Shown here piece by piece: positions 6,980 to 55,032 of a stretch of DNA of 64,000 bases (positions within the stretch are counted from its first letter, which is position 1; every line of letters starts with the position of its first letter). Made by a program: the position numbers and the translations under genes. The notes beneath the pieces are model-generated. The model had not been told where the DNA came from, ran no database searches, and worked only from the letters and a program-made list of their open reading frames with translations. Source of the DNA: Thuidium tamariscinum (Eukaryota; Streptophyta; Bryopsida; Hypnales; Thuidiaceae); assembly GCA_947034885.2 (NCBI GenBank), contig OX344752.2, forward strand, positions 2,232,001 through 2,296,000, given 5' to 3'.

Positions 6980-6983
6980 TTAA

Positions 6984-10335: not shown

Positions 10336-10423
10336 ATGTGCACTGCAGTAGTATTGCACGCCTGTCGCAACAATAGTGCCCTATAACCGCGCAGCCATGG
10401 TAGATCGCAGCAGGTTGATTCAC

Positions 10424-11677
10424 GGATTAGATAGCGCGTTCTAAACCATTCCGCAGCTAGCCGAGAGAACCGGATTCATTGGCAGATTAGAGTCCCGCAA
10501 ATGACTCTGAAGTTCAGACCGCGCGTTCTGAACCATTTTCCTTTACAAATACTCAGTGCATTCTAAAATGCTGAAATCCTTGAAATGAATATGAGGATTA
10601 GAACGCGCGTTCTGAAGCCAATGCCGATAGAACCAATGCCAACAGAGACGAAATTATCAAAGGAAACATGACCGCAGACAAAAGCCGTGACTCCATAGAA
10701 ATGCAAAGACCCTGAGCTTCAGACCGCGCGTTCTGAACCAATCCTCCACTACAAATGCTTAGAGGATTCATCATAAATGTTAAAAATTTCAGAAATGAAT
10801 ATGAGGATCGAAACGCGCGTTCTGAAGCCAATTCCGATAGAGCCAATGCCAACAGAGACGAAATTATCAGAAGAAACAAGACTGTAGATAGAAGCCGTGA
10901 CTCCACAGAAATGCAAAGACCCAGAGCTTCAGACCGCGCGTTCTGAACCAATCCTCCGCTACAAATGCTTAGAGCATTCCTCATAAATGATAAATTTTTT
11001 TGAAATGAACATGAGGATCAGAACGCGCGTTCTGAACCAAATGCAGAGACAACGAGGGTAAAAATAGTAATATTAAAAAATGGACACACGATGATCCCAG
11101 GGAGAAACCTTGATTCGACTGAAATAAAAAGTCCCGGGGCTTCAGACCACGCGGTCTGCAGCTCTGGGTCAGTGCCATGTTGAGGACCATGAGAACAATC
11201 CATCGTTGAAATGCGCAAAGACCATGCAGTTCAGACCGCGCGGTCTGAACTAAATGACCATGAGACCTTGTTCAAAATTCAGACCTCGCCGTGTGAAGAA
11301 AACTGATAATCAAATAAGGAGTTCCCAATACAGTTGGAACTCGCGACCCGGATCGACCTCGAGGTTCAGACCGCGCGGTCTAAACCGCCTGAAAGAGGGT
11401 ACGTTAGCGAGGAGCATTAGTTGCCCTGGAACTTGTAGGTTCACACGGAAGGCCACTTGGCCGTCCGTCGAGACGTACGAACGAATTGATGGGATGGGGC
11501 GCACATGGTGAAGAGCAGAATCGACTAGATTGGCGTCGACCCAAAAGAGAGAACGAATCGTAAGCGTCCCTACGGCCGATGTCACGAACTAGTCCGCGCG
11601 GTCTGAATATGTCGTGCGATTCTCCATCGCCTATTCTGCAATGCATGCCTCTGGTAGTTCAAACCGCGCGGTCTAAT
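10424..11677 (+). repeat. palindrome cluster 1 (13 copies) with a ~207-bp tandem unit
   Basis: Copies of the palindrome TTCAGACCGCGCGGTCTGAA or its variant with a TTCAGAACG half lie near 10424, 10513, 10598, 10718, 10809, 10928, 11018, 11141, 11230, 11278, 11365, 11589 and 11658. The copies at 11230 and 11365 are perfect or nearly so. From 10513 to 11037 they form part of a larger tandem unit (205 and 210 bp between equivalent copies) in which two palindromes alternate. All lie in the proposed leader intron. Confidence 0.9.
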
Positions 11678-11703
11678 TTGTTCGACTTCTTGTGGACTGT
11701 TAG

Positions 11704-13156
11704 ATGGGGGAGTTTGTCGAAAACAACCCCACTTTGCGGGGCTACCTAGAAGAAATCTCGCCAACTAGGATCCACGAGAATTGGAAATCGCATCTCGAGG
11801 ACAAATTCCCGATGCGGATATCCGCGAGGAGGGGACTGTGGACTGTGAAGTTGAGTCACGCGATGGGGTCGCCCACCTTCGGTCTTGAAATAGGGTTCAC
11901 ATCTTCGGACGGGACACGGTGGAAAACGCTGAACAACGTGATTCTCATCAACGTTTACGTGATGCGTGAGGCCATCCTTTTGGACATGGCCAATTCCATT
12001 AATAAGGAAGTCGGGGTCATCGTCATCCGTGTCGAGGACGAGATGATGTTCTGCACACGTAGGATGGTAGAGAATTTAGAGAACGTCCCGACCGCCTACC
12101 AGTACCTGATGTGCAACGTCCAGATGAGGTGTGATGCACAGTCCGGTAGGTTTGTGGAGACCGGGAAGGTCATCCAGACCTTCATGTCGGACGCAAACAC
12201 CCTTCATGCGTCAAGACTGAAATTGGGGTGTGATTCACAGGTCGAGAAGGGAGAAATGGAAGACAAGGGCGGTAGCAGCAGCAAGAAGGCCAAAAAGGGG
12301 AGCGGGTCGACGCCGACGGTGAAAACTCGAAGCCGCGCCGCTCCACAGTCCACCGTGGCGGGTGCCACCTCGCGAGCAGCCCCTCGATCCGCGCCACGAT
12401 CCACTGCGCGGCCCGCCACGAGAACTGCTGCACCCGAACCAACTCGGAGCACAGCAGCACCAACGGCCGCGGCCACACCCCCTCCCCGTGCCGCAGCTGA
12501 GCCGATCATCGCCACTCTGGCGTCAACCGCAGCGGCCGCTCCATCCTCCCGTACCGCACCGAACGCGCGCCCGAAGAAGTTGGCGACGAAGCGGAAGGTT
12601 GAGTCCGAGCCTGCTACGGTGCAGAGCGAGGATGACGCCGCGGAAGCGGAGCGATGGCGAAAGCAGAGGCGAGATCCCGTCCCTGACGAGGCCGTGCAGG
12701 GACCCTTGAGCCCGTCCATTCGAGCGGCTGAAGTCGCGCGGCGCTCCACATCCCAAGAGGCAAACCCTACGCCAAGCTCCTCCAGCCACGGTGCTCCGGC
12801 GGCTCCGAGTTCTTCCACGCAGGAAGCGTGCACGGAGCCCTTGGAGATGAGCGAGGTCGAGGCGCACTTAGTGGCCGTGAAGAAGGTGAACGACGAATGG
12901 ACGGACAACCCAGATACGATCCCATTGGACCCGTCCTCCATCCCGGATAAGATAACCGTTGAGATCGACTTCAAATCGAACTCCAAGAGAAGCGCGGATG
13001 TGAACACCAAGGGTCGGCTGAAGGTGCAGGCCAACGCGAACAAGGCGTTCAAGGAACTGTCGTCCTACATGTACATTTTCGGGCGCGGCAAGTACTTCGA
13101 GCTGGACGTGAACGAAATGACGAACGTGGAGTCGAGTTCCGGGATTATTGTGAGGC
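11704..13156 (+). CDS. giant gene, segment 1: N-terminal globular part and Ala/Pro/Ser-rich linker
   Basis: The start is the ATG at 11704, directly after an AG acceptor. Residues 1 to about 200 look globular and contain no family I recognise. Residues about 210-400 are low complexity, rich in Ala, Pro, Thr, Ser and Arg with basic patches, as in disordered nuclear-protein linkers. After that a globular stretch resumes and runs up to the insertion. The frame then enters the LTR-type element and stops after four bases (TAG at 13159). The continuation is at 17078, where codons resume in phase after GTG AGG C. Long antisense frames here reflect GC-rich codon use. Function unknown. Confidence 0.6.
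13152..13156 (+). repeat. 5-bp target site duplication GAGGC (left), partner at 17073-17077
   Basis: GAGGC precedes the terminal TGT at 13157 and follows the terminal ACA at 17072. A 5-bp duplication together with TG...CA ends is typical of integrase-mediated LTR element insertion. Confidence 0.85.
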
Positions 13157-13471
13157 TGTAGCAACCTAGAATTCACCTAAGCAAGTTCTTAAGCAAAATA
13201 CGGGAAGAAGGATCTATTCAATCCCCATTTTTTTATTTTTTTTCTTAGTTGTTACGCACAATTAGGACCAAGACCGGAAACCGGAAAACCCCAGACCGTA
13301 AACCAGAAACTACGTTAAGGGACAACGTAAGAAATCCCGGATTCCGCCCACCTAGCGACCGAGACCGGATAGGCAATGAGTGGCTACCGAGTCTAGAGAT
13401 CGTCGGGATCTCTCCCACGTGACCAGACTGGTTTAAACCTAACGGTCAGTAATTAATGCCGAGGGAAAAAG

Positions 13472-13477
13472 TATAAG
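13472..13477 (+). promoter_or_regulatory. TATA box of LTR-type element copy A
   Basis: TATAAG in the context AAAAAGTATAAGACC, about 230 bp before the ORF start and conserved in copy B (48896-48901). It fits a plant core promoter. The transcription start is expected roughly 30 bp downstream. Confidence 0.55.
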
Positions 13478-13707
13478 ACCAGGGAAGTAGGGCCAGGTCC
13501 TGCCACTTTCTTACACACAGTTCGAGAAAGGGTTTTCGGCCAGAGATAGAGTATTCGGTCTATAGACAAAGAGAAGGGATAGATAATCTGTCAATCCGGT
13601 CTGGTACATAGTTGAGCGATTAGCACTACGCTGGCTGACAGGTTCTTGAGCGCGGGAGGTTCAGTCAAGTTGGACCGCGCCTAGATTGTGTAGGCGTCAA
13701 GTGAGAG

Positions 13708-15804
13708 ATGGCAGAAGAGGTGCAGGAAGGAAGGATTCTAGCCTTCCGGAATGTGAATCCGGTCGTGCCAACTGACGCACAAGACAAGCGGGAGCTGGAA
13801 GAAGACCTCAAGCAGATGGGCTGCGAGGGGTTCATGGCTCACCCCTGGAACCTGAAGGATGAGGCGATGGTGGAGGAGCTACTGGCTGGCCAGACCAACG
13901 AGTGGAAGGGGACAGTCCGGGCGCTGCCAAAGGAGTGGAGTGCAGCGATGTGGCGCAAGGTGTACGCCTTCGAGCAAGGCGGAGATGCGACGGGCACCCG
14001 GACGGACAAATTCCACCAAGGGAAGTTCCGCAGGTCCACCAACCCGAAGGACGGCTTTACGGTAGCAGAGTGTGTGTTTGCTAGACACAAGAGGCTACTG
14101 CGGTTCATGATGGCGATCTTGAACCCGGATAGACCTAGTAGGATTACGGTCACCGTAGCCAACACCGTCTTTGGTGCGCTGTCGGGAAACAGGAAGATAG
14201 ATTGGGGGTTAGTTATGAGGGACCGGATGGACCGAATGGTGAAAGGAATTGGGAAATCTAAACCCTCTCCCATTTCACCATTCCTGTTTCATCTGTATCA
14301 TTCGTTAGAACTCTTGAGAGAGAAGGAGATGGAAGCTTACGAGGTAGGGGCTGCATTGATAGAGTATGAGATTGCAGACTCGGAAGCGGAAAATGACCAA
14401 GATGAGGAGGACTCCGAGGATGAGAGTCAGGAGGGGCATCAAGGAGGCACACAAGAAGTAGAGGAGGTTCCAGAGGTAGGAAGAGAGGATCCACCTCTAG
14501 AAACCCCTGTAGTAGCCGGGGAAGCCCAGAGGTTAGATCCGGTCTGGGAACAGGATCCCTTGCTAAGGATCCTGCGAGACCTGGAAGATTTCAGAAAGCA
14601 CCACCTAGAGGAGAGAGGGTTATTACGGGCCATAAGCCAAGCCTTAGGCTCTATTCCCCCCTCCAAGATCATGGAGGTGTTGGGAGAATTGATTCAGGAG
14701 GCTCATGATAGTCGAGACAGAGAGGAGGTACTCCGGCTGACGAATTAGGTCTCAGCCCTGAGGAGGGAGCTCCATCACACTCAGGAGGAGCTGGATGAAG
14801 AGAGACACCTCACCACGCAGGCCCGGAACACACTCGGAGAAATCCGAGAGTTCATCACGCATCCGGGCGAGGTCGTCAACAAAGCCATGCTTTTCGATAG
14901 GAAGGTCTTGGAAGCAGGCAAGATGGTGGGTCCCCAGATGCTTACAGCTCTGGTGGCCTACAACAAGAAAATGGAGGCAACGTTGGAGAAGTGGCGGTCA
15001 GTAGTCACGGAGGTCCAAGCTAGTTCTGCTCCGGTCTCAAGACCGGAAGAGCCAAAGATGGAGGAGGAGCAGCCGAAGGATCAGCCACCACCAACAGTTG
15101 TCGAGGTAGAAGCCAGCACATCCGAACCGGCGAAGGAAGAAGAGACCAGGACCGAAGCAGTGGCGGAGGAACTTGTCCCACCGACCCGGATTGAAGAACC
15201 CAGGGTTTCTCAACCCGAGAAGACCAAGGAGTCGGAACCTGAGCCGATTATGTTGACGGAGATAATCCGGGGAACGACACCACCAAGGGAGAAGACCAAG
15301 TTCATCACCTTGCTGGACGATTCTCCAAGCAAGTCGTCACCCACGGTCGTCACACAACCGAAGACCGGAGGGGAAACAAAGGCAACAGTGTAGGTTCGCT
15401 CCATACTGAAGACCGGATCTGGATCCGGGTCACCAAGCAAGGGACCAGCCCGGACTGCCGAGAAAGTGGGAGAGCAGAGCCCACAAAGCAAGATAGTGCA
15501 CCACCCGCCCATCACCGGATTCAAGAAGAAGACCGCGGAGACATCCAAGGTGAAGCGGAAGGCCCGGGATGAAGAGGAAGAGGAGTCAGATGAGGAAGAT
15601 GAGGACTCGGAGGAAGAGACCGACTCCGGTGATGAGTCGGAACAGTACTCAGATGCGGACCAAGCATTGGCAGAGACCAAGCAGACCAGGGCCAAGGCAC
15701 GGGGTAAGACCAAGCCGAAGCCGCGACCCGTCAAGATGTACCGGTCCCCGAAGAAACAGCCAACCCGGAAGGGTGCATCGCCTGTCAAGAGGGCGAGGAA
15801 ATAG
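13708..15804 (+). pseudogene. element ORF, copy A: 698-codon acidic/coiled-coil protein with two premature stops
   Basis: The ATG at 13708 opens a frame of 2,097 nt ending TAG at 15802, exactly the same length as in copy B. The first ~220 residues are globular. An acidic stretch rich in Glu, Asp and Ser follows (about 230-260), then a heptad-rich coiled-coil region (about 330-440), a Pro/Glu/Lys-rich segment, a second acidic run and a very basic Lys/Arg/Pro tail. Premature TAGs lie at 14746-14748 and 15391-15393, and copy B has CAG at both sites. I recognise no family. A Gag-like or DNA-binding role is possible but unproven, since there is no CCHC knuckle and no protease or polymerase motif. 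Confidence 0.75.
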
Positions 15805-17072
15805 GAGAGCATTAATTTCAGGTAGATAGGAAGGCGGCTAAACCAGGATATATTTAGGTTAGGAACTTTTGAACTTAGACCGGATCTAGATATGTAGGAT
15901 CTGTGATCCTATTTTGTTGGTATTTTTGTAGTTTTGTGGAAGTCAACCCGCCCAAGTTGTAGAGGAATGTTACGTGGCCTTCTTGGCGGCTGGTGTTGAT
16001 TCCATTTGCACTTTTAGGTTTTCTTGTAGTTTAGTATTTAAACCCGGTTCTTAATTGGATCCGGGCGCGCATTATGTTATCTTACTTTCACAAGTTTTTG
16101 TGTTGCAAATACAAATTAGAACCTTTCTGATTCACTCTGAAGTGGACTGTGTGCATGGGACCTTGTCAAAGTCTTATGGTGATGGTTAGGATTGCAGCCT
16201 TGTGTAGATAAGTGTGTGCCCGGATGTTCAGTTTATCCGGTCTTTGGACTTAAAGTGAATTCGGTTTTGATAGGGAATTTGTGCAGGATCCCACAGTGTT
16301 TTCTAGAACAGGTCTAGGGAGTATTTGATAGAGATAGACACTTGTAGAGTCTGGGTTTGAGATCGGGAGCGTCCGGCCAAATGCCAACTGAATGGTGATC
16401 CGGTCTCTATAGAAGAAAGAAGGACTAAGTGAGGAAATTCAGCTCTCTTGCATAAGCTATCGCCCTTATTCTACCAGGGATTAGACTAACTGGATAATCC
16501 GTCGTTGTAGTCTTTGTTAGGATTAGGCAGGAGTGCTTGCGTGACCTGTTGGGTCGGATTAGTCCCAGTCTTGTTGTGAAGTATTCCGGTCTGTTTGTAG
16601 TAGTAGTTTCTTTTTACTTATAAGTGGAACTTTTGACACTTTAAAACTTGAAGGGTAGGAGTAAGCTTCCTCCCTAAACGCCCAAACAAGCAGATCCCTC
16701 TTGTTATCGAGGTAAAACTTACACTTGGTTACTATACTAGGGACTGGACCAACTACTAGTATCCGGTCTTTAGTCCCATATCTAGTGAGGATAAGCATAA
16801 AGGTAGTAAACATACTGGTATAAATAGATAGACTTAGTTTTGAAAGATAAAGGATTGATCTGGTAATCAAGTCCAAGGAAATCTTAGGAACCTTGGAGAC
16901 CCAGACCGGATCAGTCTTTTGCTTGGGTTTTGTTGTGATAACCACTAACGTATTCCGGTCTTTCGTCAGCTTTCGACCAAATCCTTTGGGAACGATACAC
17001 GAGTCACTTTAAGGCTAATTTAGTACATTCTAACGCCTTAGAGAAGGAATTGTGCTTTCCTATGCTACGACA
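15805..17072 (+). other. 3' non-coding part of element copy A
   Basis: About 1.27 kb with no supported gene, conserved in copy B with scattered substitutions and small indels. It has several CCGGTCT or AGACCGG motifs. Conservation outside the coding frame suggests it belongs to the LTR or 3' region of the element. Confidence 0.55.
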
Positions 17073-17077
17073 GAGGC

Positions 17078-17526
17078 CCCTGGAGACGGAGGGCGTCCTC
17101 TACGTCCTGAAGCGGATGGTACTCGTGAACTACACGAAGCAGATCCTGACCGTAATGCCCGACACGGCCACGCGACCGAAGGACTGGAAGGAGTGCACGA
17201 CGGCCGAGAAGTTCAAAATCATCAACGGCCAGCACACATGGAAGGCCGCGTCAGAGATCTTGTCGGGGGAGACGACGGTAGATGACGAGTCCGTCAAAGC
17301 CCGGCTGCAGAAGTGGACATGCGAGATCGTCTGGTCGGACAAGTCGCATCACCTGCACACCCTGTCCTCGATGTGCAACTCGGGGAACGTGCTCGCTCCG
17401 TTTCTGTCTTCGGTGCCCGCCACGATCAAGCATTGCAGGGAGATCTGGGAAAGCACCGGCCGGCTGATGCAGTTCAGGAAGAACACAAGGCAGACGAGTC
17501 AGGGCGAAGATTTCCATTCCTATGAG
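17078..17526 (+). CDS. giant gene, segment 2
   Basis: Continues segment 1 in phase after the retroelement is removed (the C at 13156 joins the CC at 17078-17079). It encodes about 150 residues without recognisable motifs and ends at a GAG|GTATGA donor. No internal stop is present. The frame also reads backwards into the element through 17072, but that extension belongs to the element. Confidence 0.6.
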
Positions 17527-17545
17527 GTATGATCTTACCTTCCAG

Positions 17546-17914
17546 TTCAGACCGCGCGGTCTGATCTGCCCCACCCTATCATAGGAGACGAAGTCCAGGC
17601 CTCGGATTTCGTTTGCTGATCTCCGCGACGTCGTCGCTATTAGTCGGGGTCGAATCCGACCGCGCGGTCTGGATTCTCCGACGTGCATCTTGATTGTGAT
17701 GTGAAGGACTTGTTCGATTCCTGCAGTCGTAGAATTAGTGCCCGAGACACTTCAGACCGCGCGTTCTGATGTGGGTTACCTTGTAGCCTTGCCTCTTGAA
17801 TCTGGAACAAGGTTCGTTGGACGCGACTGGTCCTCCATAGAGGGAGATGAGGGTGTGTTGTGGTCTCGTGTGTTGTTTTCCTGATCGGACATGGATTAGG
17901 GCGCGCGCTCTGAA
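17546..17914 (+). repeat. palindrome cluster 2 (4 copies) inside the intron 17527-17947
   Basis: Copies lie at 17546-17564, 17653-17675, 17751-17769 and 17896-17914. The first two have the perfect ACCGCGCGGT centre. They sit about 100 bp apart in a 421-bp GT-AG intron of the giant gene. The spacing and the positions between exons argue against chance. Confidence 0.85.
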
Positions 17915-17947
17915 CATGGTCTCTGATGTGTCTTCGTCGTTTCGCAG

Positions 17948-18213
17948 GAGTTCAAGGCCAAGTGCGAGGAGAGCTTCAAGTTGACCGGGACTTCGCAAAC
18001 CCTCAACGGAGCGAAGACGACAATTAAGGACTTCGACAAATTGGGGGAGTGCAGGGTCATCATGGCCTCCAATGAGACTTGGGCCCTCTAGAAGGAGCTC
18101 TTCGAATTGCACGAGTCGGGCACCTTGTACAACATCGACCACAGCTGCATGTACAACGAGTTGGATACCGAGGCGGGCAATTCCAAGGCGACGAAGCTGC
18201 CGCCCTTCAACAA
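17948..18213 (+). CDS. giant gene, segment 3 (ends at the CACTA-like insertion)
   Basis: Begins after the TTTCGCAG acceptor in phase 0. There is one in-frame TAG at 18089-18091, where a Gln codon is the likely ancestor. The segment ends with two bases of a Lys codon, which is completed by G at 38747 beyond the insertion. Codon use is GC-rich, like segments 1 and 4. Confidence 0.6.
18211..18213 (+). repeat. 3-bp target site duplication CAA, partner at 38744-38746
   Basis: CAA precedes the terminal CACTACAAAAAA and follows the terminal TTTTTTGTAGTG. A 3-bp duplication is the rule for CACTA (EnSpm) elements. Confidence 0.85.
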
Positions 18214-18850
18214 CACTACAAAAAAGGAGGGGTATAAATGACTGCGATCTATGACTGTAATCCAGTCATTCCGGACAAAAATGACTGCGTCGCGACTCGA
18301 GGCTCTGGAGTCATTGTGGACAAGTCATTCTTTAAATGACTGCAATCTTATTATCACCATCCATTTTAGACTTGGATGGAAAATGGATGAGGGGGTCTAC
18401 ATGGACGATGAGGTGGACAAGCAAATTTTTAGAAAAGATTGGGCAGCTGCCCATTTTTAAAGAAATTTTGCTAACATAGATGTCCACGTCAACCAATTAT
18501 GTAGTCATTTTGCAGTCGTGATATAGTCCAAGCATTGTTGACGTGGACATCCACGTTAGAGTCACATGTAAGTCATTGTGAAGTCATTATGTAGTCATTT
18601 TGTAGTTGTGATATTGTATGTAGGTTGCTGACGTCAGAGTCATGTGTAAGTCATTATGAAGTCATCATGCAGTCATTTTGTAGTTATAATATAGTCCAAG
18701 TACTGCTAACGTGGACAACCACGTCAGAGTCACATGTAAGTCACTGTGAAGTCATTTTATAGTCATTCAGAAGTTGTGATGAATGTTAAGATGGACTGCC
18801 ACGTAGCAAGTCATTTCATAGTCATTTTTGAGTAATGTAGAATTAGGGTT
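18214..18850 (+). repeat. left subterminal region of the CACTA-like element
   Basis: Rich in AGTCATT and AATGACTGC motifs, with several diverged ~100-bp units such as 'cacgtcagagtcacatgtaagtcat' at about 18550, 18640 and 18730. It mirrors the right subterminal region at 38295-38743. Confidence 0.8.
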
Positions 18851-21590: not shown

Positions 21591-21599
21591 CAGGGTTGT

Positions 21600-22030: not shown

Positions 22031-22243
22031 CACAAGCCGTGTATTTGAAGGTCACTTTTCCTTGTTGATCTCTGCTCTTATGACCTGGTTGGCACACAGC
22101 CATTGCACTAGAGTGAAGTCCAAGAAGAGTGTATGGGAGGAACATTTGCTGTGAAAGCAGTAAGTGTTATTTCCACATCACATCCAAACAGAATACTAAT
22201 CTGTTTTGTTTGTGCAGTTTCAAGTGAAGAACCAGTGGGAGCA

Positions 22244-33430: not shown

Positions 33431-33631
33431 TCCCAAATTCAGCCACAATTAACCTTGCTTTCTCTCTTGAGTTGCTCTGTCCTAGCTTGAAAAAAGCTTT
33501 GCATTGCAATTCGGGAGGAAGTCAAGCATTTGGCTATTGCTTTGCCACATTCCAGTTGCCCTCACGCAATAGGAGGCAGACATAGTCATCTGTACATACA
33601 CATCCGTGTTGTGGCATTGTGTGCAGGTACT

Positions 33632-38286: not shown

Positions 38287-38294
38287 CGCAATAG

Positions 38295-38743: not shown

Positions 38744-38746
38744 CAA

Positions 38747-39866: not shown

Positions 39867-39952
39867 GTGAGTTTCGATCTCTGCAGATTGGTGAATTCCT
39901 CTTTCGTTCATCGAAATGTGAACATGGACTGATTTGCACTCGTGGTTTCCAG

Positions 39953-42268: not shown

Positions 42269-42710
42269 GTGGGTAACCCCTCCACATAGCTCCCTTTTTG
42301 TCAGTTAGCTCGGACGCTATGTGAGGGCGTTACGCCGGGCCGGTCGAAGGTCGTCCCAGCGAGTCTTAGAGAGCCGCGGGAGCCATAGTCGTAGCGGCTC
42401 TTTGTTTTGTGCATAGGATTTCTAGGCATTCAGTCACTGGCATCCATTTTGAGACATGTTAATTGGGCCCGGGCATGTGCGGACATTGTGATTGATTTGT
42501 TGTGCACCTCGCATCTTGTAAATATGGTGCATTCTTGTAATATATGAGACGTGATTTTTTTGGTTTTGTACCGTGCGTGCTTTGGTGACGCGCATGGCTT
42601 TCGTGGTGTGTGTGCTCTGCATTGTCGATGGCGTTGTCACTTCCCTTGCGTCGCGTCCTCACAGTTCTTTTTGGACAATGTAGTTATACTCGTATGCTTT
42701 TTCGGTCCAG
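42269..42710 (+). other. intron of the giant gene (phase 0)
   Basis: GTGGGT donor at 42269 and a TTCGGTCCAG acceptor ending at 42710. Both flanking exons are in phase 0. No palindrome copy and no gene is seen inside. Confidence 0.45.
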
Positions 42711-43232
42711 GGTCCGAATGCTCCTGTGATGGACACCAACCTCCCCGTGAAGCCCCCGCATCCACACCCGTTGCACTCCCCTGGTACGCTCGATCCGACG
42801 AGAATCCCAACCATCCACCTGACCGGCCCCAACGAAGCCCCACACTGCCAAGCCCCCGAAAAGCTCTCCTTCTCTGTGGACGTCGCTCCACCCAACCCCC
42901 GTGACGTGGAAGTGGACAGCGCTTTGTAGACGCCCGTCGCTGCGGATGTCGTTCCACCCCCTCCGGTGGAGGTCGACGCCGGGGGACCTTGGATGACTAC
43001 ACCTCCGCACGCATTGGATGGCTCGCTCGCGACCCCGTTTGAGGAAGAAGTCGACGGGCCCTGGACGACAATCCCTCCCGCCACCTTGCAGGCGATGCCT
43101 CCCGAAGTAGAAAGTAAAGAAACGGCACGGGTCGTCCCTACAGCGGAACCGCAGCTCGCTCCGTCAATTGATGCACGCGAGGCCCCTCCGACCCCTCCAA
43201 TCCGCACGACTCCGGCGGATGCACCGACGAAG
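42711..43232 (+). CDS. giant gene, segment 6: Pro-rich linker
   Basis: About 174 codons, very rich in Pro, Thr, Ala and Val, with one in-frame TAG (42927-42929). It ends at an AAG|GTGAGC donor. Low-complexity composition suggests a disordered linker between the coiled-coil part and the phosphatase-like domain. Confidence 0.5.
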
Positions 43233-43341
43233 GTGAGCCACAATGCCTCTCCCCACTCCCACCCGCACTTTGTTGTCCTCCCATACTCCTCCCCGCGTAG
43301 TTTGGAAGTGTTGACAAGATGCCCACGTAGACGGGGGGATG

Positions 43342-43424
43342 TTTCAAGGCGCGCGTTCTAAACTGCATGCGTCCCCGGCTTGCGCCGCACGACGGGCAAT
43401 GTGTTTAGAACGCGCGCTCTAGAC
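43342..43424 (+). repeat. palindrome cluster 4 (2 copies) in the last intron
   Basis: Copies at 43342-43363 and 43404-43424 with the variant centre (A)GGCGCGCGTT or AACGCGCGCT, about 60 bp apart in the 339-bp intron between segments 6 and 7. Confidence 0.8.
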
Positions 43425-43571
43425 TGCACGCCTTTTGCAATGTGTCGCGTCTTCGTGCCTTGGATGTGATGATGGACCGTCTCTATCGTCCGCAATTGCG
43501 TCTTAGTTTTTTCTTCCGCCTCGCCCGTCTTAGAAATCCCTACTCAAGGAGAGGGGCATTCGGACGCGCAG

Positions 43572-44552
43572 GCACCACCGTCGGTACCCCCGGCGATCCC
43601 TTCCCCTCGCCTCCCGCGCATGAGTTATTTCGTCCTCCTGGAAGTGGAGGGGGTCTTGTGCCACGTCGAGCACGTCGGTCCGGCTCCGCTCGCTCCGCGT
43701 GCCCCCGTTGCCCCGGCCGTGCAGCCTTCTGAGGCGGATTTCGATCCCACGCGCCGTCACGTCTTCGGGGAGTACGCCCTGTACTATCGACCCGAGGTGC
43801 GCCACTTCCTCAGCGGACTGTCCAAGAGGTTCCGCATGGGCATCTGGACCCGGCTGCCGGGGGACGTCGCGAGGCCCGTGGTGAAGTTCCTCTTCCGGGA
43901 CAGGGACGTCAGTACGATGTCCATCCTCACCATGGAGGACTGCACCACCCTGGTGGAGAGGCGCGCGTGGTGGACCTGCGAGTGCCCGCCGTACCCGGAG
44001 TTTCCCCTCCTCGGCTGCCCGGTGCACCCGGCGGACATGTTTGTCGACAAGAAGGTCGAGAAGAACACCTGGATGGCCTTTCCAGACCATCCCGGGGGGC
44101 TGTTGCGGCTCAAGGTGTTGCACAAGGTCGTTTGGGGCGACCCCAAGTTTCGCGCGAGCGCTTTCAGGGCCAACGCGACCAATACACTGCTCATCGAGTC
44201 CAGCCCGGAGAGCACCATCCTCAACCCCATTCACAACGCCATATTCCCTCTGACCTACATTGGCAGCGCGACGGACAGTTTCTTCAACTACTCTCTGCGC
44301 CCGTACCTGGCGGGCCTCCTGGAATCCGGGCGGAGCGTGCCCCAATACCTGTCGAAAACCCCCCCTTACTTCGGACGGCTCGACAGACCCTGGACCCAAA
44401 CGGAACTGGGAATGAGAGTACTCAAGTTAGCTCAGTCGAGGGACAGTGATCTTGTCTTAGACTATTTGGACTTCGTCGGAAGTTACAATGCGAACGGGAG
44501 CGATCCTTTCTTTAAGAGGAGAGCGGTCACTCATCCCTCGAGGAAAACGTGA
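43572..44552 (+). CDS. giant gene, segment 7: FCP1/SCP-like HAD domain lacking catalytic aspartates
   Basis: Begins after a GCGCAG acceptor and ends at TGA 44550-44552 with no internal stop. From Met at 43620, the fold of plant FCP1/NLI-interacting-factor-like phosphatases is visible. Motif I is LLEVEGVLC, where the family has a DxDG-type motif. YRPEVRHFL and IWTR form motif II, and NTLLIESSPES with NPIHNAIFP is motif IV, where the family has DDS. Both motifs have lost the key Asp, with Glu in motif I and ES in place of DD, so a phosphatase reaction is unlikely and a binding role is possible. The ATG at 43620 could also start a separate gene. Confidence 0.65.
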   Translation, partial: APPSVPPAIPSPRLPRMSYFVLLEVEGVLCHVEHVGPAPLAPRAPVAPAVQPSEADFDPTRRHVFGEYALYYRPEVRHFLSGLSKRFRMGIWTRLPGDVARPVVKFLFRDRDVSTMSILTMEDCTTLVERRAWWTCECPPYPEFPLLGCPVHPADMFVDKKVEKNTWMAFPDHPGGLLRLKVLHKVVWGDPKFRASAFRANATNTLLIESSPESTILNPIHNAIFPLTYIGSATDSFFNYSLRPYLAGLLESGRSVPQYLSKTPPYFGRLDRPWTQTELGMRVLKLAQSRDSDLVLDYLDFVGSYNANGSDPFFKRRAVTHPSRKT

Positions 44553-45180
44553 TGCTTGTGCAGATCCGACGACGCATATACGTCAGGGGTGACCGGGGCG
44601 TGCCGAAGGGCGTCGCGATGGCCGCTCGCTCCAAGCGGCACCGGACGCGAATGGTGGAAGGGGTGGGCTCCTCCGAAGGTTGCTTCGTCCCTCAGGACAC
44701 CGGGGACGACGCGACGTCGGCTCCTCCTTGAAGCACGACCACTTGGCCATGGCACCGCGGACGTGCACCGCTCCCGTTGGGCGCACGGTATGCAGGATTC
44801 GGCCCCACGGTAAAAAAATACCCAAGTACGCTTCTCGATGACGTCATCGTTGCGGTCAGGAGTCCTCCACTCAGGCGGTCTAGGACTCCATGCAAGCTCT
44901 GAAGAAATCCCCCGTCCATTGGAAGATTTCCTCGAGTTTGTTCTCTATCTCTGCACCTCCTCGTCCGGTCATCCTTCCTTTTGGATCTTCTACATGGGAT
45001 GGTGGATGGCTTCAGTCTCTCGTCTCCGAGTCCACTGGGATGTTCTTTTATTGCACGTCGGAATATGTGGGTCGTCTCGGAAGGGGTACTGAGCGCCAGC
45101 TGATTGTTGACTCTCGCAGGTGCAGCGACTCGCGCGGGATCTGTGGATGTCCTCCCGTGTAGGCCCGCGGGCGGCGTGCA

Positions 45181-45203
45181 ATTCAGGCCGCGCATTCTGA
45201 ACC
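45181..45203 (+). repeat. isolated palindrome copy
   Basis: ATTCAGGCCGCGCATTCTGA is followed by ACC. Two half-site changes from the consensus. It is the first copy downstream of the giant gene. Confidence 0.75.
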
Positions 45204-45984
45204 GTGGGCTCCGTCGCAGAGGGAGTTGCCACTATCGCGCTGTATCCTCGTCCACAGACGTCGCGACGGACGATGTCGGCAAAAACCTTCCTCGCGTCAA
45301 ATTCAGCATAGGATGACTAGCCTCAACCCCTTGACGCTTCCACGGTCTTGGGCTGTCGTAATCATGACTCCACCGCAGACCGTGCATCAGCGAAGAAACT
45401 GGGATCCCCTCGTGGACTCTTTATATCCTTGTCTTGTTTAGCTAGTAGTTTTTCCCCCTTAGCGTTCAGTAGGACGTGCAACCTCGTCACCATTCCAACG
45501 TGGATGCACTTATGATGACAATATTGTGATTTGCATTGCATTTCGTTTGCATCACTAATTTGACATACATTTTCATCTACATTTGACTGGGGACCCGTTG
45601 TTCTAACATTATTCGTCGCATGAAAAACGCAATGGAGTGCGACACCCATCCTGACCGCTGCATGGTGCGTAGTTGTATGGCAGCTGCATCAGTCTGTTCC
45701 TTGCCCTCTCGTAGACCTCTTCGCCTGATCCGCGGACCGTACATTGATGGACGTTAGATCTTACTAGTGCATTCCTTCGCCTCCTCGATTCCAGTTACGC
45801 GCTCGATCGACAATAACATGAAATGAGCATCGCACCCAAATAGTCTTCATCGTAGAGATCATATCCCAGACACGTCTTACTTTGGTCGTTGCAGAGCACT
45901 CCGAGGAAGCCAATCCGTGATTCACATTTCTGGTCGCTGTTTGTCGGCTTGCGAACTTGAAGGTATCCGCACGGACAGTTGGCG

Positions 45985-46640
45985 TCATGATGGCCTCCCG
46001 GTGGAATCCGGCAACGACGATGGGAGACACTGGCGTCGGCACGTATCTCGCGGCTCTCACGGAGCACAGCGGGCAACCCAAAACACGTTCGCCTCGCCTG
46101 TATCCGTCATCCTCCGCAACGAGGGACCTTGTGCAAGTCTTCCCGTCATGGCCCTCCATTTTGCAACGTGGGGCTGCCTTGTTCTATGGGTATGAAACTC
46201 GGAGTCTCGACTTCTTTGGTGGACCACTCGCTGGCCAGGCCCCGAGTGGCCGGGCAAGTTCAAGTGCGTCGTCCATGTCCGGTGCCGCGCAATTACCTTC
46301 GACGGACGAGTGTCCTTCGGATGTGATTGTGCGGTGTCGGACGTGGACCGATGCACGTGAACTCTCTCGCCTCGTCTGGGATGGCCGAGGAGCGTCTCGC
46401 GCTTGGACTCCAGACGCCGAGCTTCAGACCCATTGAACGGGACAGCTCCAGGTCTCCTACAACAAAGTGGAGGGCGGTGACGGAAGACTTGTATAGGATC
46501 CTGCCCGATCGCTGCATGATGCACTCGATCAAGTTCGCGTCCGCGCGAACGTCGTCCTTGTTGCACGCACAACTCCACAAATGCCGATAGACGTACCCTA
46601 TTATCGCTGCTGGCATCTACCATCAGTGCAAAGAGGAAGA
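45985..46640. repeat. long imperfect foldback, centre near 46315
   Basis: The segment around 46115-46200 (caagtcttcc..ggccctccattttg..gttctatggg) is matched in inverse by 46420-46510 (cccattgaac..caaagtggagggcggtgacggaagacttg). Matching continues in diverged form out to about 45985 and 46640. The transcript could fold into a long stem. Confidence 0.7.
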
Positions 46641-46824
46641 CGCTTGAATGACGTCATGAGCCTCTCGGACGTGAACAATGCTCCACTGCCGTTCAAGTTT
46701 GCAGCCCCTCTGCGCCCCAAGAACGTGGAGGCAAACGTCCACGGTCATACGAAAATCATTGCCAAGGTGCCTAATGTTGCACCTGATAATGTGATAGCCA
46801 TTGCGTTCGCTTCCTCGGAGTGCT

Positions 46825-47785
46825 ATGCGTCGACCACACAAAGACAGCTTGCTGCCAATCTGCGTCGACAAGGCGGATTCGCGGAGACAGCTAAAACAGG
46901 GGAACTTCAACGGCAACTCCGCCTCTGGCGAGGGAGATGGTTGTCGATGCATTGGATCTACGTTGCTTTGGAAGCCAAGTTTGGATGGAGAGGTGCATTC
47001 CATGCCGTTGGCAACCACCTCCTTTGTCAGAAGTGGGGTTACCTTGAATATGGCGACTTTCGGATGGGGAGTCGCGAAGATCCAGTCGGTGGATCGAGTG
47101 GACATTCGGACGACGCGTGTTCCAGGTTCGTTTTCCTACGACGGCTTCTATCTATGTATGTACCGAATGTCGTATTTCTAATTTCTTGTCCGCCTTCGCT
47201 TAGGGTAATCGAGGAGAGATGCACTTCTAACGACCTCTCAGTCTGCGCAGCTTCTACTCCGCTGGTCTTCAGGACTCTTCAGGCCGCGCGTTCTAATCCT
47301 CTGGTCCTCTGGACTCTTCAGGCCGCGCGTTCTAATCCTCTGGTCCTCTAGACTCTTCAAGCTGCGCATTCTAATCCGCTGGTCCTCTGGACTCTTCAGG
47401 CCGCACGTTCTAATCCGTGCATGTCCATCCCAGGATGGTCACAGCATGTGGCTCTGCAGTTCGGACCGCGCATTCTGAAATGCGGGCTTGGATTATGCGT
47501 CGACCACACGAAGACGGCTTGCTGTCGATTTGCATCGATTGGGCGGATTCGTGGAGACTAAACAAGAACACTTCAGCGGCAACTCCGCCTTTGGCAATGG
47601 AGTTGGTAGGCAATGCATTGGACCTACGTTGCTCTGGAAGTCTCGTTTGGATGGACAAGTGCAGTCCATGCCGTTGGCCACCATCTTCCTTGCCAGAGGT
47701 GGAGTTACCTTGAATATGGCGACATTCGGACGGGGAGACACAAGGTTGCACTTGGTGGACCAGGCCGACATTCAGACGGGCTCTC
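46825..47785 (+). repeat. diverged direct duplication, 46825-47117 and 47490-47785
   Basis: Both copies share landmarks such as GCGTCGACCACAC, CGGCAACTCCGCCT, ATGCATTGGA.CTACGTTGCT, CATGCCGTTGGC and ACCTTGAATATGGCGAC. Neither copy supports a conserved long protein. Confidence 0.75.
47277..47420 (+). repeat. 39-bp tandem repeat, 4 copies, each carrying one palindrome
   Basis: Units start at 47281, 47320, 47359 and 47398, each reading close to AGGCCGCGCGTTCTAATCC followed by TCTGGTCCTCTGGACTCTTC. A further palindrome lies just after at 47459-47478. Confidence 0.9.
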
Positions 47786-48049
47786 CTCTTCCGGCATTCT
47801 TGCCCTGCACGAGATGATATCCCGATTCCCAAGCACGTCTTCCTGTACTTGTTGTTCAAAACTCCCAGGAAGTGGGTCCAGAACGGGCGGCGATTGTGTT
47901 GGCAGCCCCCGCGTCCGCGCGCACGATACGGGGTTCGTCCTCTTGCCCTCCCGATACGGGGGAACATTGGCAAGGCCTGCGTTTTCTCTCTTCCAAGTTC
48001 GCAACGAGAGCCGTCGTCATCTTTAGACTGTGTTGGTGCTTGGCATCGA

Positions 48050-48215
48050 CAACTGGGGACGCACTCGTGGGCACATAGCTTTCGGCAGTCACGGAGTTGT
48101 GTCGGCGACGAAAAGGGCATATCGTCCAGGGTGATGCGCGCGCAGACGTCGGCCTCGTGGCCCACACTTCTCTGTGGATGCCGGAAGATGTGTGCCCACG
48201 GCGGCGTCGCCCATT
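48050..48215. repeat. hairpin with ~45-bp imperfect arms
   Basis: GGGGACGCACTCGTGGGCAC and the following bases on the left are matched in inverse on the right by GTGTGCCCACGGCGGCGTCG. Related sequence also occurs at 46020-46060, so this is a repeated unit of the locus. Confidence 0.65.
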
Positions 48216-49131
48216 ATCGCTGTCGGGCTCCACCATAGTGTGAAGATGATGATGGCTAGCGCTATGAGTGTCCTAGACATGGATGACCGTGGCCAATTTG
48301 AGGAGCGAAGACGTTTCGAAACTTGCGACTGTCGCACATCGTTCCCGTTTTGCTCGCTTCCTGGGAGCGTTGCACAACAAGCACGGGAGGGCGTGATTGG
48401 TCCCCATGTGCATCGACGAAGGGGTCACGCGAGGACCGAGCAAGTTAGAGAGCTTCAACGACACCTCGCATGCGTGGGGAGCGCTCCCCGAACGACGAGC
48501 GTTGGGATCGTCGACGAGAGGCGAGCATTCCATTCAACATCTCCCTCGACATCGATTGAATTTCCTATCTGTGCTCTCTGTGTGGCAACCTAGAATTCAC
48601 CTAAGCAGGTTCTTAAGCAAAATACGGGAAGAGGGATCTATTCAATCCCCATTTTTTTTGTTGTTTTCTTAGTTTCTACACATAATTGGGACAAAGACCG
48701 GAAACCGGAAAACCCTAGACCGTAAACCAGAAACTACGTTAAGGGACAGCGTATGAAATCCCGGATTCCGCCCACCTAGCGACCGAGACCGGATAGGTAA
48801 TGAGTGGCTACCGAGTCTAGAGATCGTAGGGATCTCTCCCACGTGACCAGACTGGTTTAAACCTAACGGTCAGTAATTAATGCCGGGGGAAAAAGTATAA
48901 GACCAGGGAAGCAGGGCCAGGTCCTGCCACTTTCTTGCACGCAGTTCGAGAAAGGGTTTCCGGCCAGAGATAGAGTATTCGGTCTACAGACAGAGAGAAG
49001 GGATAGATAAACTGTCAATCCGGTCTGGTACATAGTTGAGCGAATAGCACTACGCTAGCTGACAAGTTCTTGAGCGCGGGAGGTTTAGTTAAGTTGGACC
49101 GCGCCTAGATTGTGTAGGCGTCAAGTGAGAG

Positions 49132-51228
49132 ATGGCAGAAGAGGTGCAGGAAGGAAGGATTCTAGCCTTCCGGAATGTGAATCCGGTCGTGCCAACTGAC
49201 GCACAAGACAAGAGGGAGCTGGAGGAAGACCTCAGGCAGATGGGCTGCGAGGGGTTCATGGCTCACCCCTGGAACCTGAAGGATGAGGCGATGGTGGAGG
49301 AGCTACTGGCCGGCCAGACCAACGAGTGGAAAGGGACGGTCCGGGCGCTGCCAAAGGAGTGGAGTGCAGCGATGTGGCGCAAGGTGTACGCCTTCGAGCA
49401 AGGAGGAGATGCGACGGGCACCCGGACGGACAAATTCCACCAAGGGAAGTTCCGCAGGCCCACCAACCCGAAGGACGGCTTTACAGTAGCAGAGTGTGTG
49501 TCTGCTAGACACAAGAGGCTACTGCGGTTCATGATGGCGATCTTGAACCCGGATAGACCTAGTAGGATTACGGTCACCGTGGCCAACACTGTCTTTGGTG
49601 CACTGTCGGGAGACAGGAAGATAGATTGGGGGTTAGTTATGAGGGACCAGATGGACCGAATGGTGAAAGGAATTGGGAAATCTAAACCCTCTCCCATTTC
49701 ACCATTCCTGTTTCATCTGTATCATTCGTTAGAACTCTTGAGAGAGAAGGAGATGGAAGCTTACGAGGTAGGGGCTGCATTGATAGAGTATGAGATTGCA
49801 GACCCGGAAGCGGAAAATGACCAAGATGAGGAGGACTCCGAGGATGAGAGTCAGGAGGGGCATCAAGGAGGCACACAAGAAGTAGAGGAGGTTCCAGAGG
49901 TAGGAAGAGAGGATCCACCTCTAGAAACCTCTGTAGTAGCCGGGGAAGCCCAGAGGTTAGATCCGGTCTGGGAACAGGATCCCTTGCTAAGGATCCTGCG
50001 AGACCTGGAAGATTTCAGAAAGCACCACCTAGAGGAGAGAGGGTTATTACGGGCCATAAGCTAAGCCTTAGGCTCTATTCCCCCCTCCAAGATCATGGAG
50101 GTGTTGGGAGAATTGATTCAGGAGGCTCATGATAGTCGGGACAGAGAGGAGGTACTCCGGCTAACAAATCAGGTCTCAGCCCTGAGGAGGGAGCTCCATC
50201 ACACTCAGGAGGAGCTGGATGAAGAGAGACGCCTCACCACGTAGGCCCGGAACACACTCGGAGAAATCTGAGAGTTCATCACGCATCCGGGTGAAGTCGT
50301 CAACAAAGCCATGCTTTTCGACAAGAAGGTCTTGGAAGCAGGCAAGATGGTGGGTCCTCAGATGCTTACAGCTCTGGTGGCCTACAACAAGAAAATGGAG
50401 GCAGCGCTGGAGAAGTGGCGGTCAGTAGTCACGGAGGTCCAAGCTAGTTCTGCTCTGGTCTCAGGACCGGAAGAGCCAAAGATGGAGAAGGAGCAACCGA
50501 AGGATCAGCCACCACTAGCAGCTGTCGAGGTAGAAGCCGGCATATATGAACCGGCGAAGGAAGAGGGAACCAGGACCGACGCAGTAGAGGAGGAATCTGT
50601 CCCACCGGCCCGGATTGAAGAGCCCAGGGTTTCTCAACCCGAGAAGACCAAGGAGCCGGAACCCGAGCCGATTGTGTTGAGGGAGATAATCCGGGGAACT
50701 ACACCACCAAGGGAGAAGACCAAGTTCATCACCTTGTTGGATGATTCTCCAAGCAAGTCATCACCCACGGTCATCACACAACCAAAGACCGGAGGGGAAG
50801 CGAAGGCAACGGTGCAGGTCCGCTCTATACTGAAGACCGGATCTGGATCCGGGTCACCAAGCCAGGGACCAGCCCGGACTGCCGAGAGAGTGGGGGAGCA
50901 GACCCCGCAAAGCAAGATAGTGCACCACCCGCCCATCACCGGATTCAAGAAGAAGACCGCGGAGACATCCAAGGTGAAGCGGAAGGCCCGGGATGAAGAG
51001 GAAGAGGAGTCAGATGAGGAAGATGAGGACTCGGAGGAAGAGACCGACTCCGATGATGAGTCGGAACAGTACTCAGATGCGGACCAGGCATTGGCAGAGA
51101 CCACGAAGACCAGGGCCAGGGCGCGGGGTAAGACCAAACCGAAACCCAAGCCCATCAAGATGTACCGGTCTCCGAAGAAGCAGCCAGCCCGGAAAGGTGC
51201 GTCGCCTCTCAAGAAGGCGAGGAAATAG
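49132..51228 (+). pseudogene. element ORF, copy B: same 698-codon frame, three premature stops
   Basis: Same domain order as copy A: a globular N-terminal part, acidic run, coiled coil, Pro/Glu/Lys segment, second acidic run and basic tail. Premature stops are TAA 50062-50064, TAG 50242-50244 and TGA 50269-50271. Copy A has CAA, CAG and CGA at these sites. Copy B has CAG at both sites where copy A stops, so together the copies document a complete ancestral frame. The protein family is not recognised. Confidence 0.78.
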
Positions 51229-52496
51229 GGGGCATTAATTACAGGTAGATAGGAAGGCGGCTAAACCAAGTTATATTTAGGTTAGGAACTTTTGAACTTA
51301 GACCGGATCCAGATATGTAGGATCTGTGATCCTATTTTGTTGGTATTTTTGTATTTTTGTGGAAGTCAACCTATCCAAGTTGTAGAGGAATGTGAGGTGG
51401 CATTCTTGGCGGCTGGTGTTGATTCCATTTGCACTTTTAGGTTTTCTTGCAGTTTAGTATTTAAACCCGGTTCGTAATTGAATCCGGGCGCGCATTATGT
51501 TATCTTACTTTCACAAGTTTTTGTGTTGCAAATACAAGTCAGAACCTTTTCTGATTCACTCTGAAGTGGACTGTGTACATGGGACCTTGTCAAAGTCTTA
51601 TGGTGATGGTTAGGATTGCAACCTTGTGTGGATAAGTGTGTGCCCGGATGGTCAGTTTATCCGGTCTCTGGACTTAAAGTGAATTCGGTTTTGATAGGGA
51701 ATTTGTGCAGGATCCCACAGTGCTTTCTGAAACAGGTCTAGGGAGTATTTGATAGAGATAGACACTTGTAGAGTCTGGGTTTGAGATCGGGAGCGTCCGG
51801 CCAAATGCCAACTGAATGGTGATCCGGTCTCTGTAGAAGAAAGAAGGACTAAGTGAGGAAATTCAGCTCTCTTGCATAAGCTACCGCCCTTATTCTACCA
51901 GGGATTAGACTAACTGGTTCTTCCGTCGTTGTAGTCTTTGTTAGGATTAGGCAGGAGTGCTTGCGTGACCTGCTGGGTCGGATTAGTCCCGGTCCAGTTG
52001 TGAGGTATTCCGGTCTGTTTGTAGTAGTAGTTTCTTTTTACTCATAAGTGGAACTTCTGACACTTTAAAACTTGAAGGGTAGGAGTAAGCTTCCTTCCTA
52101 AACGCCCAAACAAGCAGATCCCTCTTGTTATCGAGGTTAAACTTACACTTGGTTACTATACTAGGGATTGGACCAGCTACTAGTATCGGGTCTTTAGTCC
52201 CATATCTAGTGAGCGTAAGCACCAAGGTGGTGAACATGCAGGTATAGATAGATAGACTTAGTTTGGAAGGATAAAGGATTGATCTGGTAATCAGGTCCAA
52301 GGAAATCTTAGGAACGTTGGAGACCAAGACCGGATCAGTCTTTTGCTTGGGTTTTGTTGTGATAACCACTAACGTATTCCGGTCTTTCGTCAACTTTCGA
52401 CCAAATCTCTTGGGAACGATACACGAGTCACTTTAAGGCTAATTTAGTGCATTCTAAAGCCTTAGAGAAGGAATTGTGCTTTCCTGTGCTACGACA
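51229..52496 (+). other. 3' non-coding part of element copy B
   Basis: Matches 15805-17072 in order, with point changes and small indels. No gene seen. Confidence 0.55.
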
Positions 52497-53107
52497 CTCT
52501 GAACCATCCATTCCTTCGTGCGTGCCTTTTTCGTCCTCTGCGAGACAAGATGCATTCCTTCGTCGCCTTCACGCTTTGCGGTCCTAGTCCGGGACTCCGT
52601 GCGTCCCTCCACCTTTGTGGTCGTTGTCTACCGAGCCGTTGGAAACCTTCTGAATGTGAGCTTCTCGTCCGCAGGTGCATGGATTGCCGGTTAAGATGGA
52701 GGAGCGCCTTCTGATGTTGGTAGCAACCTCGAAGAGGTTCAAGGCGCGCGTTCTGAACCGTCGGCTTCAACTCGGGCGGCGGGCTGGGTGTCCCCATCCC
52801 ATACCATCCCATGATGTCGCGGATGATGATGTCAGTTGACGGATGGAACTTGAAATGTAGCGTGTAGGCTGAATTAGATGCGCCCACGCACGCTTGCACG
52901 CACTCGGGTAGTCACTCTCATGACTTCACCGTGAACCATGCATCGGCGAACAGTTTCTAGGCGTCGTTCCGCGCCTCATTGGGGGACGCAGCACGCATCA
53001 TTCGCGGCCTCCTGGAACTTGCATGAAGTCATTTTGTAGGCCACCGAGGAGGCTTTCGTCCAGACGACCATACCATCAACCTCGACCCTGAAACCGGAGC
53101 TATCTAC

Positions 53108-53355
53108 TACCCTGCGTATGAAGGGTGTATTTGGACTCCACTCGTGCAATCCTTGTTCACTCCGACCGATAGGGAGCGGACAATTCGTGTCCGACGCTCC
53201 ACAATCGCTTTCATATGGAGGGGCTCCTATGGACGTGATAGTGTGGTTTCGGATACGAAACGACTTGTGAAAGCTTGCGCGCTCCCTGTCGGTCGGGGCT
53301 AACTATCATCGTGCGAGGCGAGCCCCAATGCAACCTTCATACGCAGGGGAGTGGA
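53108..53355. repeat. hairpin with two matching arm blocks
   Basis: CCCTGCGTATGAAGGGTGTA and CACTCCGACCGATAGGGAGC on the left are matched in inverse by GCTCCCTGTCGGTCGGGGC and CAACCTTCATACGCAGGGG on the right, in the proper mirrored order. Confidence 0.7.
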
Positions 53356-53680
53356 TTGCTCCATGTCACGACCATTCGGGTGTAGGGCGATCAATCCGGT
53401 CATGGCAGATTCAGAGATGGGCTCCGAACACTCCCACGAATGGCAGAGGGAGCTAGGGTTCCCAAGGAACACCTTCGTGAGTTGCACTTGAGGAATGAAT
53501 CCACAACCACTGTGCCATGGGCCGCGTCCCTTTTTCGACCAAACATTACATCTTTCTCTTTCTGTGTAGCATGATTTCATCCCTGTCCTTCACTCTCACT
53601 TCTTATCGCGCTGTCCACCTTTCAGGACAAGAAAATGCGTGGCCTACACTATCAAGACTTCCGATCCCAATCATGTCTCG

Positions 53681-53790
53681 GTGTGCCCATGCACATGATT
53701 CCAGGGAATAGAGCTCCACCTGCTCGCCCTGTGTCTCGCACTCCGTTCGTACCACTCGAGCTTCCTTGGAATCGTGTGCATGGGTACACG
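53681..53790. repeat. hairpin, ~30-bp arms
   Basis: GTGTGCCCATGCACATGATT then CCAGGGA on the left, and the inverse (TCCTTGGAATCGTGTGCATG then GGTACAC) on the right. Confidence 0.7.
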
Positions 53791-54065
53791 GAGGCACGTC
53801 TGGCTCCAATGCACCAAGCAAAACAAATCTGCAACGTTCATGGAGGGTGCGACATGTGGAAGTTGCCGATCATCTTTCGATCGCATCCTTCGGTCCAGAC
53901 TACGGAAGCGCGTGCGAAGATCGGTAGTTTTGACGCTAGGCGATGGCTTTCTTCAATTGATGCATTCCAATGATTCTTTCGGGCGTTCACGGGCAGCATG
54001 TTGCGTTGTCGTCGACCATGAATGTCGTTCACGTCATTGATTGTCCCTAAATTTTCCGTGACGAT

Positions 54066-54137
54066 GGTGCCTCCATACATGAAGAAAATGGGTCGTAGCG
54101 ACTCCTACATCTCGCTTTCTTCGCGTACGGAGGCACC
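54066..54137. repeat. hairpin, ~22-bp arms
   Basis: GGTGCCTCCATACATGAAGA on the left and TCTTCGCGTACGGAGGCACC on the right with a ~30-nt loop. The GTGCCTCCGTRCAC motif is shared with the neighbouring hairpins. Confidence 0.7.
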
Positions 54138-55032
54138 CACGTACGGGAATATTCAGGGACGATCGATGATGTGAACGACCCAATATTCTATTCGTGAACG
54201 TCCAAAACATTCACTGGAAGACATCAATTGCAGTAAGCCATCGCCTGTCGTCACAACTCCTCCCTGCACGTGCTCCTGTAGTCTCTACCGAAGGATGTAT
54301 TTAGGGGGTGGTCGGCAACTGCCACATCTCGGGTCCACCATTACCTTGCAAATGGCACACGTTGACGCTCAAATGGAACCCCCGGAAGAAGGTCTGCAGG
54401 GACGACGACGAACGCTCGACGAAAGAGAACATGGGATTCAGAGGGGGAGCTTCGAAGGTGCATCAACGCCGACGTCGACTGCGGAGCGGCCTCACATGCT
54501 GGTCACGTGCTCCGTCCAGTTCAGAACGGGCGTTCTGAATCGTGCCCTCCAACACGGAGACTGTCGGGTCTTGTCTTTAGCCGAGCATGCAGCATCGTCA
54601 ACATGACAGCAGCCGAACACAACGAAGGTGCATGGTATCTCGGCCTCTGGCAGGCTAAGTGGTTATCAGCCCATCGGATCCACGCTCGCTTTCACGCGGC
54701 ACCTTCCATTCCTGGAATGGACTGCGATTATTCATGTGGGTGGAGTGTCGGACGGCCATGTGGGTTCCATTTTCTTGGCAACCACCTAGCCTGTCGGAGG
54801 TCGAGGTACCTTGCAGATGGCGAATATCTCACGTGGAGTTGCCTCGCACGTGGTTTAGCGATCTTCGGAGCATGGACAAGCGAAAGAAGTCTGCATCGAT
54901 TTTGGAGGGCATGAGGTGTGCCAGTTGTCGACCATCTACCGACCGCATCCCTCGGTCAAGACTATGGAAGCACGTGCACTGATAGGTTGTGACCAGTGGC
55001 GATGGCTGCTGTTCGCGTCGTTGAGGAACCCT

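Follow-up and report, generated by a model that had tools for sequence, protein, structure and literature searches.

A dispersed 22-bp near-palindrome in one moss locus as a candidate array of protein-binding sites

The window analysed here, 64,000 nucleotides of Thuidium tamariscinum contig OX344752.2 (positions 2,232,001 to 2,296,000, forward strand; window coordinates are used below), raises a simple question: what is a short palindrome doing when it recurs some thirty times in a single locus? The sequence, GTTCAGAMCGCGCGKTCTGAAC, is a 22-bp near-palindrome, and the 31 copies that we kept form nine clusters, all inside one GC-rich unit of 18 kb. This unit comprises positions 9250-13156, 17073-18213, 38744-48580 and 52497-55650, separated by three inserted elements, with outer edges that we set from composition. 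The answer towards which we lean, tentatively, is that the palindromes are clusters of sites on double-stranded DNA at which a sequence-specific nuclear protein, probably acting as a dimer, recognises this gene or selfish-element family.

The palindrome family is real and far above chance. Allowing up to three mismatches, the 20-mer TTCAGACCGCGCGGTCTGAA matched the window 17 times and matched none of 100 dinucleotide shuffles. The 22-mer GTTCAGAMCGCGCGKTCTGAAC gave 14, 22, 28, 30 and 35 matches at up to three, four, five, six and seven mismatches, against means of 0, 0, 0.07, 0.37 and 3.1 in 30 random sequences drawn from the window, region by region, with a first-order Markov model. All 30 matches at up to six mismatches lie in the unit (18,039 bases) and none in the remaining 45,961 bases. 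The five matches at exactly seven mismatches were weighed singly: the one at 47355, part of a 39-bp tandem array, was kept, and four (23536, 37832, 51711 and 52750), a number close to the chance expectation, were discarded. A weight matrix built from the 31 copies scored each of them at 18.2 bits or more, values that are flattered because the matrix derives from the same copies, while the rest of the window holds no site of 10 bits or more. A reading made from sequence only had reported about 30 copies in one unit, none of them in the inserts or the flanks, and had taken a copy number like that of composition-matched shuffled sequence as grounds for refutation; within the window, both scans bear the observation out, with positions within two bases of those given earlier. 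The same reading held that the unit predates the insertions, which is plausible; absence from the inserts says little about the age of the motif, because separate transposons would lack it at any age. The exact degenerate 20-mer had no match in viral_contigs or in the prokaryotic genome_contigs, and the literature searched yielded no description of such a palindrome. Confinement, with a gap from 10 to 18.2 bits in which no site of the window scores, is the first support for the binding-site reading.

The second comes from the tandem repeats, where palindromes vary less than the spacers around them. In three 210-bp tandem units (a degenerate fourth was left out of this comparison), 5 of 44 palindrome columns were variable, compared with 63 of 156 in the spacers (Fisher P 0.00025), or with 36 of 99 once a poorly aligned tail was removed (P 0.0024). 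Divergence between the first and third units was 6.8% in the palindromes and 28.6% in the spacers (P 0.002), and between the second and third 6.8% and 25.2% (P 0.007). With the degenerate unit included, the contrast held for units one and four (P 0.003, with only 22 palindrome columns aligned) and for units three and four (P 0.024). These comparisons bear directly on a rival explanation, unlikely in our view yet deserving serious weight, in which the copies are debris of tandem duplication: slippage and unequal exchange would have multiplied a short sequence in the noncoding parts of one gene, and gene conversion would have homogenised it, without any binding function. Many copies do sit in 210-bp and 39-bp tandem units, the 39-bp array lacks constraint and the reading frames of the unit are broken, all of which suits debris; the more variable spacers of the 210-bp units do not, nor does the fact that separate clusters are alike in little but the palindrome. 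Our best reading is that the sites spread partly by tandem duplication.

That clusters have the palindrome in common and hardly any flanking sequence also speaks for a small mobile palindromic element copied to many positions of the unit, one of the three options raised in the sequence-only reading. Short palindromic repeats have spread in some organelle genomes, and 18 tests of the flanks gave nominal signals for the 20-bp core at a duplication length k of 2 (18 of 2000 shuffles) and for the 22-bp core at k 9 (3 of 2000). However, no duplication length was consistent: across k of 4, 5, 8 and 9 and three core definitions, the 31 copies gave one complete match in all, a 5-bp match at the 20-bp core where 0.04 was expected. 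Lacking consistent target-site duplications, restricted within the window to a single locus, and with its four exonic copies all in one frame, the palindrome is improbable as a mobile element. We are more doubtful still of ordinary host transcription-factor or insulator sites, present at many other genes. One cluster lies near the presumed promoter and palindromic form is usual for dimeric factors, but the motif carries about 29 bits across its 22 columns (31 copies including duplicates, uncorrected), above what is usual for such factors, and no copy lies in the 45,961 bases outside the unit.

The two arms of the palindrome offer a further line of evidence. Among the 31 copies, positions 8 and 15 read CG in 9, AT in 4, CT in 10 and another combination in 8. 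The earlier description of two symmetric subtypes with hybrids therefore holds, with the hybrids running in one direction only (CT 10, AG 0; in 24 less redundant copies, CT 5, AG 0). Arm positions were paired in 246 of 341 cases, against 240.6 (standard deviation 5.0) in shuffled arms, and 823 of 5000 shuffles scored as high; in the 24 copies without obvious tandem duplicates, the figures were 195 of 264 against 187.8 and 325 of 5000. Arm covariation is thus not significant, and each arm appears to maintain the palindrome largely on its own, as expected for half-sites read by the subunits of a protein. Mirrored positions were also unequal between the arms at 7/16 (P 0.0011) and 8/15 (P 0.0105; 11 tests), which makes the site slightly asymmetric. 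Scoring with the cluster in question left out, 22 of the 31 copies favoured the gene strand, 8 the opposite strand and 1 neither, a bias that is suggestive: all clusters in one orientation ranked third of 256 arrangements, and free assignment, with mixed orientation, fitted better.

A hairpin in the transcript, acting in splicing, in stability or as a source of small RNA, is not our first choice and is the least probable of the readings, since 19 of 31 copies in predicted introns, the orientation bias and weak nominal pairing at single positions are set against the lack of significant covariation, a commonest state at 8/15 that is a C-T mismatch (10 of 31), the better fit of mixed orientation and the absence of any Rfam match at gathering thresholds. 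Of the three options proposed earlier, binding by a dimeric protein agrees best with the data, on the strength of its palindromic form, the constraint in the 210-bp units and arms that vary largely independently.

Two properties of the unit as a whole point the same way. Copies fall mostly outside coding frames: a gene model made by hand, by eye, from reading frames and GT-AG sites puts 13 of them in a 5' intron and 6 in two later ones; 4 fall in an exon and the remaining 8 in noncoding DNA further downstream. Four of 31 in coding parts is fewer than expected from a coding share of 39% (P 0.0014), a first count that took in 41609-42168 and 42712-43231, where we had no clear open frame, and also from the 32% that remains when only clear open frames are counted (P 0.013). 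The ratio of observed to expected CpG is, moreover, higher in the unit than around it. Fourteen one-kb bins wholly in the unit gave 0.87-1.19, against 0.30-0.71 in the left flank and 0.50-0.81 in the right, the change falling at about 9 and 56 kb; six bins wholly in the two 3.9-kb inserts gave 0.57-0.76. With the palindromes masked the contrast stays (0.93-1.21 against 0.49 and 0.65). A unit without CpG depletion fits a long absence of DNA methylation.

How might such sites work? A sequence-specific protein would bind the palindrome copies, it may be encoded by the same gene family, and its binding could keep the unit open or unmethylated, much as VANC proteins do on VANDAL transposons. The closest analogue that we found is indeed the set of VANC-binding motifs. 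VANC21 recognises YAGTATTAY in VANDAL21, and its motifs are enriched in that family, dense, in the same orientation and mainly noncoding, in introns and upstream (PMC5735166, PMC10398659); they come in two types and grow through tandem repeats (PMC5735166). The likeness in arrangement is close, with a short motif dense in the noncoding parts of one family, tandem repeats and two types, and it lends further support to the binding-site reading. In contrast to the 9-bp VANC21 motif, the palindrome is 22 bp long and some of its copies are exonic. Its confinement is to one unit within the window, its preference for noncoding DNA holds by copy and not by cluster, and tandem repeats are present while the orientation bias is not firm. 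VANDAL elements encode VANC, with DUF1985, and VANA, a MULE transposase; the scan of the three plus frames of the whole unit and the three minus frames of 38744-48580 detected neither domain, and the palindrome is known from the sequence of one window. The locus would at best work like such a system, and we do not assign it to VANDAL.

Several results weigh against the binding-site reading. Taken by cluster, the avoidance of coding sequence is not significant (one of nine clusters; P 0.078 at a coding share of 39%, 0.16 at 32%). Units one and two of the 210-bp repeat do not differ significantly in constraint (9.1% in palindromes against 17.4% in spacers, P 0.24), nor do unit two and the degenerate unit four (P 0.10), and in the downstream 39-bp array palindrome columns are no more constrained than the others (4 of 22 variable, against 4 of 17; P 0.71). 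Nominal excesses of arm pairing exist at 8/15 (33 of 1000 shuffles) and, in the 24-copy set, at 1/22 (19 of 1000), each among 11 tested pairs. CpG bins of the CACTA-type insert are mixed, both low and high (0.19-1.25), and base composition or a different origin may explain the CpG contrast equally well. Pfam searches of the frames named above returned an NIF domain only, and no binding protein. Finally, given the broken frames of the unit, any protein of its own would need to be supplied by another copy.

Other known systems resemble the locus less. CACTA/Spm and hAT elements carry subterminal repeats bound by their own transposase, which are likewise clustered short motifs; the palindromes here, unlike those repeats, extend through introns and 3' DNA, and no long terminal inverted repeats were found in the flanks scanned (6000-10500 and 53000-62000). 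In ParB-parS systems several palindrome copies lie near a gene, as they do here near a stretch that is possibly ParB-like, but the ParB similarity is weak. Algal and fungal mitochondrial genomes have short palindromic repeats dispersed in introns and spacers; here the dispersal is similar, whereas the window looks nuclear and the copies are confined to one unit.

A bolder form of the binding-site reading, to which we give little credence, would make this a non-VANDAL plant selfish gene family whose introns and flanks hold some 30 copies of a 29-bit palindrome, an address almost unique in the genome. A protein encoded by the family, possibly ParB-like, would read this address, spread from the copies and keep methylation off the entire unit, an independent origin of sequence-specific anti-silencing. 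VANDAL is the sole case of such anti-silencing through dispersed sites that we found in the literature, in a search partly aimed at VANDAL and not designed as a survey. If true, this would be another such system, its address a long palindrome, and would show that self-tagging of a gene family through its own dispersed binding sites arises repeatedly; if the copies are amplified debris instead, the locus still illustrates cleanly how a motif spreads through the introns of one gene.

The gene model, on the plus strand like the palindrome copies and the three inserts, begins with a predicted 5' intron at 9736-11703 (GTAAGT ... TTAG, directly before the ATG at 11704), whose splice sites, like those of the later introns, were placed by eye. 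Thirteen palindrome copies span 10425-11678 in it, some in the 210-bp tandem units, with starts at 10425, 10512, 10596, 10717, 10806, 10927, 11016, 11140, 11229, 11277, 11364, 11587 and 11657. Upstream of them, in the same predicted intron, lies a 92-bp tandem repeat of 4.2 copies (9945-10333). The first coding exon (11704-13156) has a coding-like codon-position GC pattern over its first 597 bases and no Pfam family above the cut-off; it is interrupted at 13157 by a 3.9-kb element and continues past it at 17074-17526. The next predicted intron (17527-17947) holds four copies (17545, 17653, 17750 and 17894), and the following frame is cut by the CACTA-type element. Four more copies (40472, 40532, 40721 and 40778) lie in an open reading frame at 40040-41605, all in the same codon frame, which is one of the two stop-free frames of the consensus as read by eye. 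The 363 bases that bear them (40460-40822) have a weak codon-position GC pattern (0.69, 0.60, 0.71), so the stretch could be intronic and its open frame fortuitous. Third-position GC is 0.71-0.86 in 11704-12300, 17074-17521, 38745-39860, 40823-41605 and 43620-44549, and presumed introns lack the pattern; in-frame stops occur near 18089, 38943 and 39861. A third predicted intron (43233-43533) carries copies at 43342 and 43403 and is followed by an NIF/FCP1-like phosphatase reading frame at 43620-44549 (Pfam PF03031, E 3.9e-10). Six copies between 45181 and 47480 are in apparently noncoding DNA, at 45181, at 47277, 47316, 47355 and 47394, which form the 39-bp tandem array, and at 47459; single copies follow at 52737-52758 and 54519-54540. 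The 3' part of the unit also has large imperfect palindromes of about 120-530 bp (48009-48257, 53096-53362, 53827-54353 and 55029-55145).

The piece at 17074-17526 contains INGQHTWKAA, which weakly resembles a ParB motif; FAGAKAVSA is the other motif behind a ParB/methyltransferase reading of the first gene. We did not adopt that reading, as Pfam and NCBIfam gave nothing fitting and PHROGs gave for this piece only a weak match to phrog_723 (E 0.23 over 23 residues). Solved structures likewise gave nothing fitting for the first gene and tblastn of phages nothing sensible, and its structure models were too poor to use (predicted local distance difference test scores of 36 and, for the 17074-17526 piece, 41). 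A viral origin was also set aside, with no 20-mer match in viral_contigs and three protein scans that confirmed no relative.

The three inserts are all without the palindrome. The 3.9-kb element, with TG...CA ends and 5-bp target-site duplications, occurs twice, at 13157-17072 (duplication GAGGC) and at 48581-52496 (duplication CTCTG). The copies are 95.2% identical, lack long terminal repeats in the sense of any internal repeat over 150 bp, and gave no Pfam match above the cut-off in the frames searched (one of the first copy, two of the second). The 20.5-kb CACTA-type element at 18214-38743 ends in CACTACAAAAAA / TTTTTTTGTAGTG, with a 3-bp duplication CAA, and holds a hAT-type DUF659 frame (22133-23917, E 2.6e-36), a frame for a RING finger (33530-35728) and, on the minus strand, part of a kinase (26929-27567). 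By its CACTA ends, hAT-type frame and paired 3.9-kb elements, the window looks nuclear and from a plant or plant relative. Comparison of 6000-10500 with 53000-62000 at E up to 5 gave a sole inverted match, 13 bp exact (8964-8976 with 55572-55560); it is at chance level (E 0.50), though near both edges of the unit, whose ends are approximate. Just left of the unit is an inverted repeat (8382-8957), whose ends we take to resemble miniature inverted-repeat transposable elements of the Stowaway type. Bordering the unit on the other side, 55636-59183 holds diverged repeats in both direct and inverted orientation, among them a 331-bp tandem array at 58208-59183.

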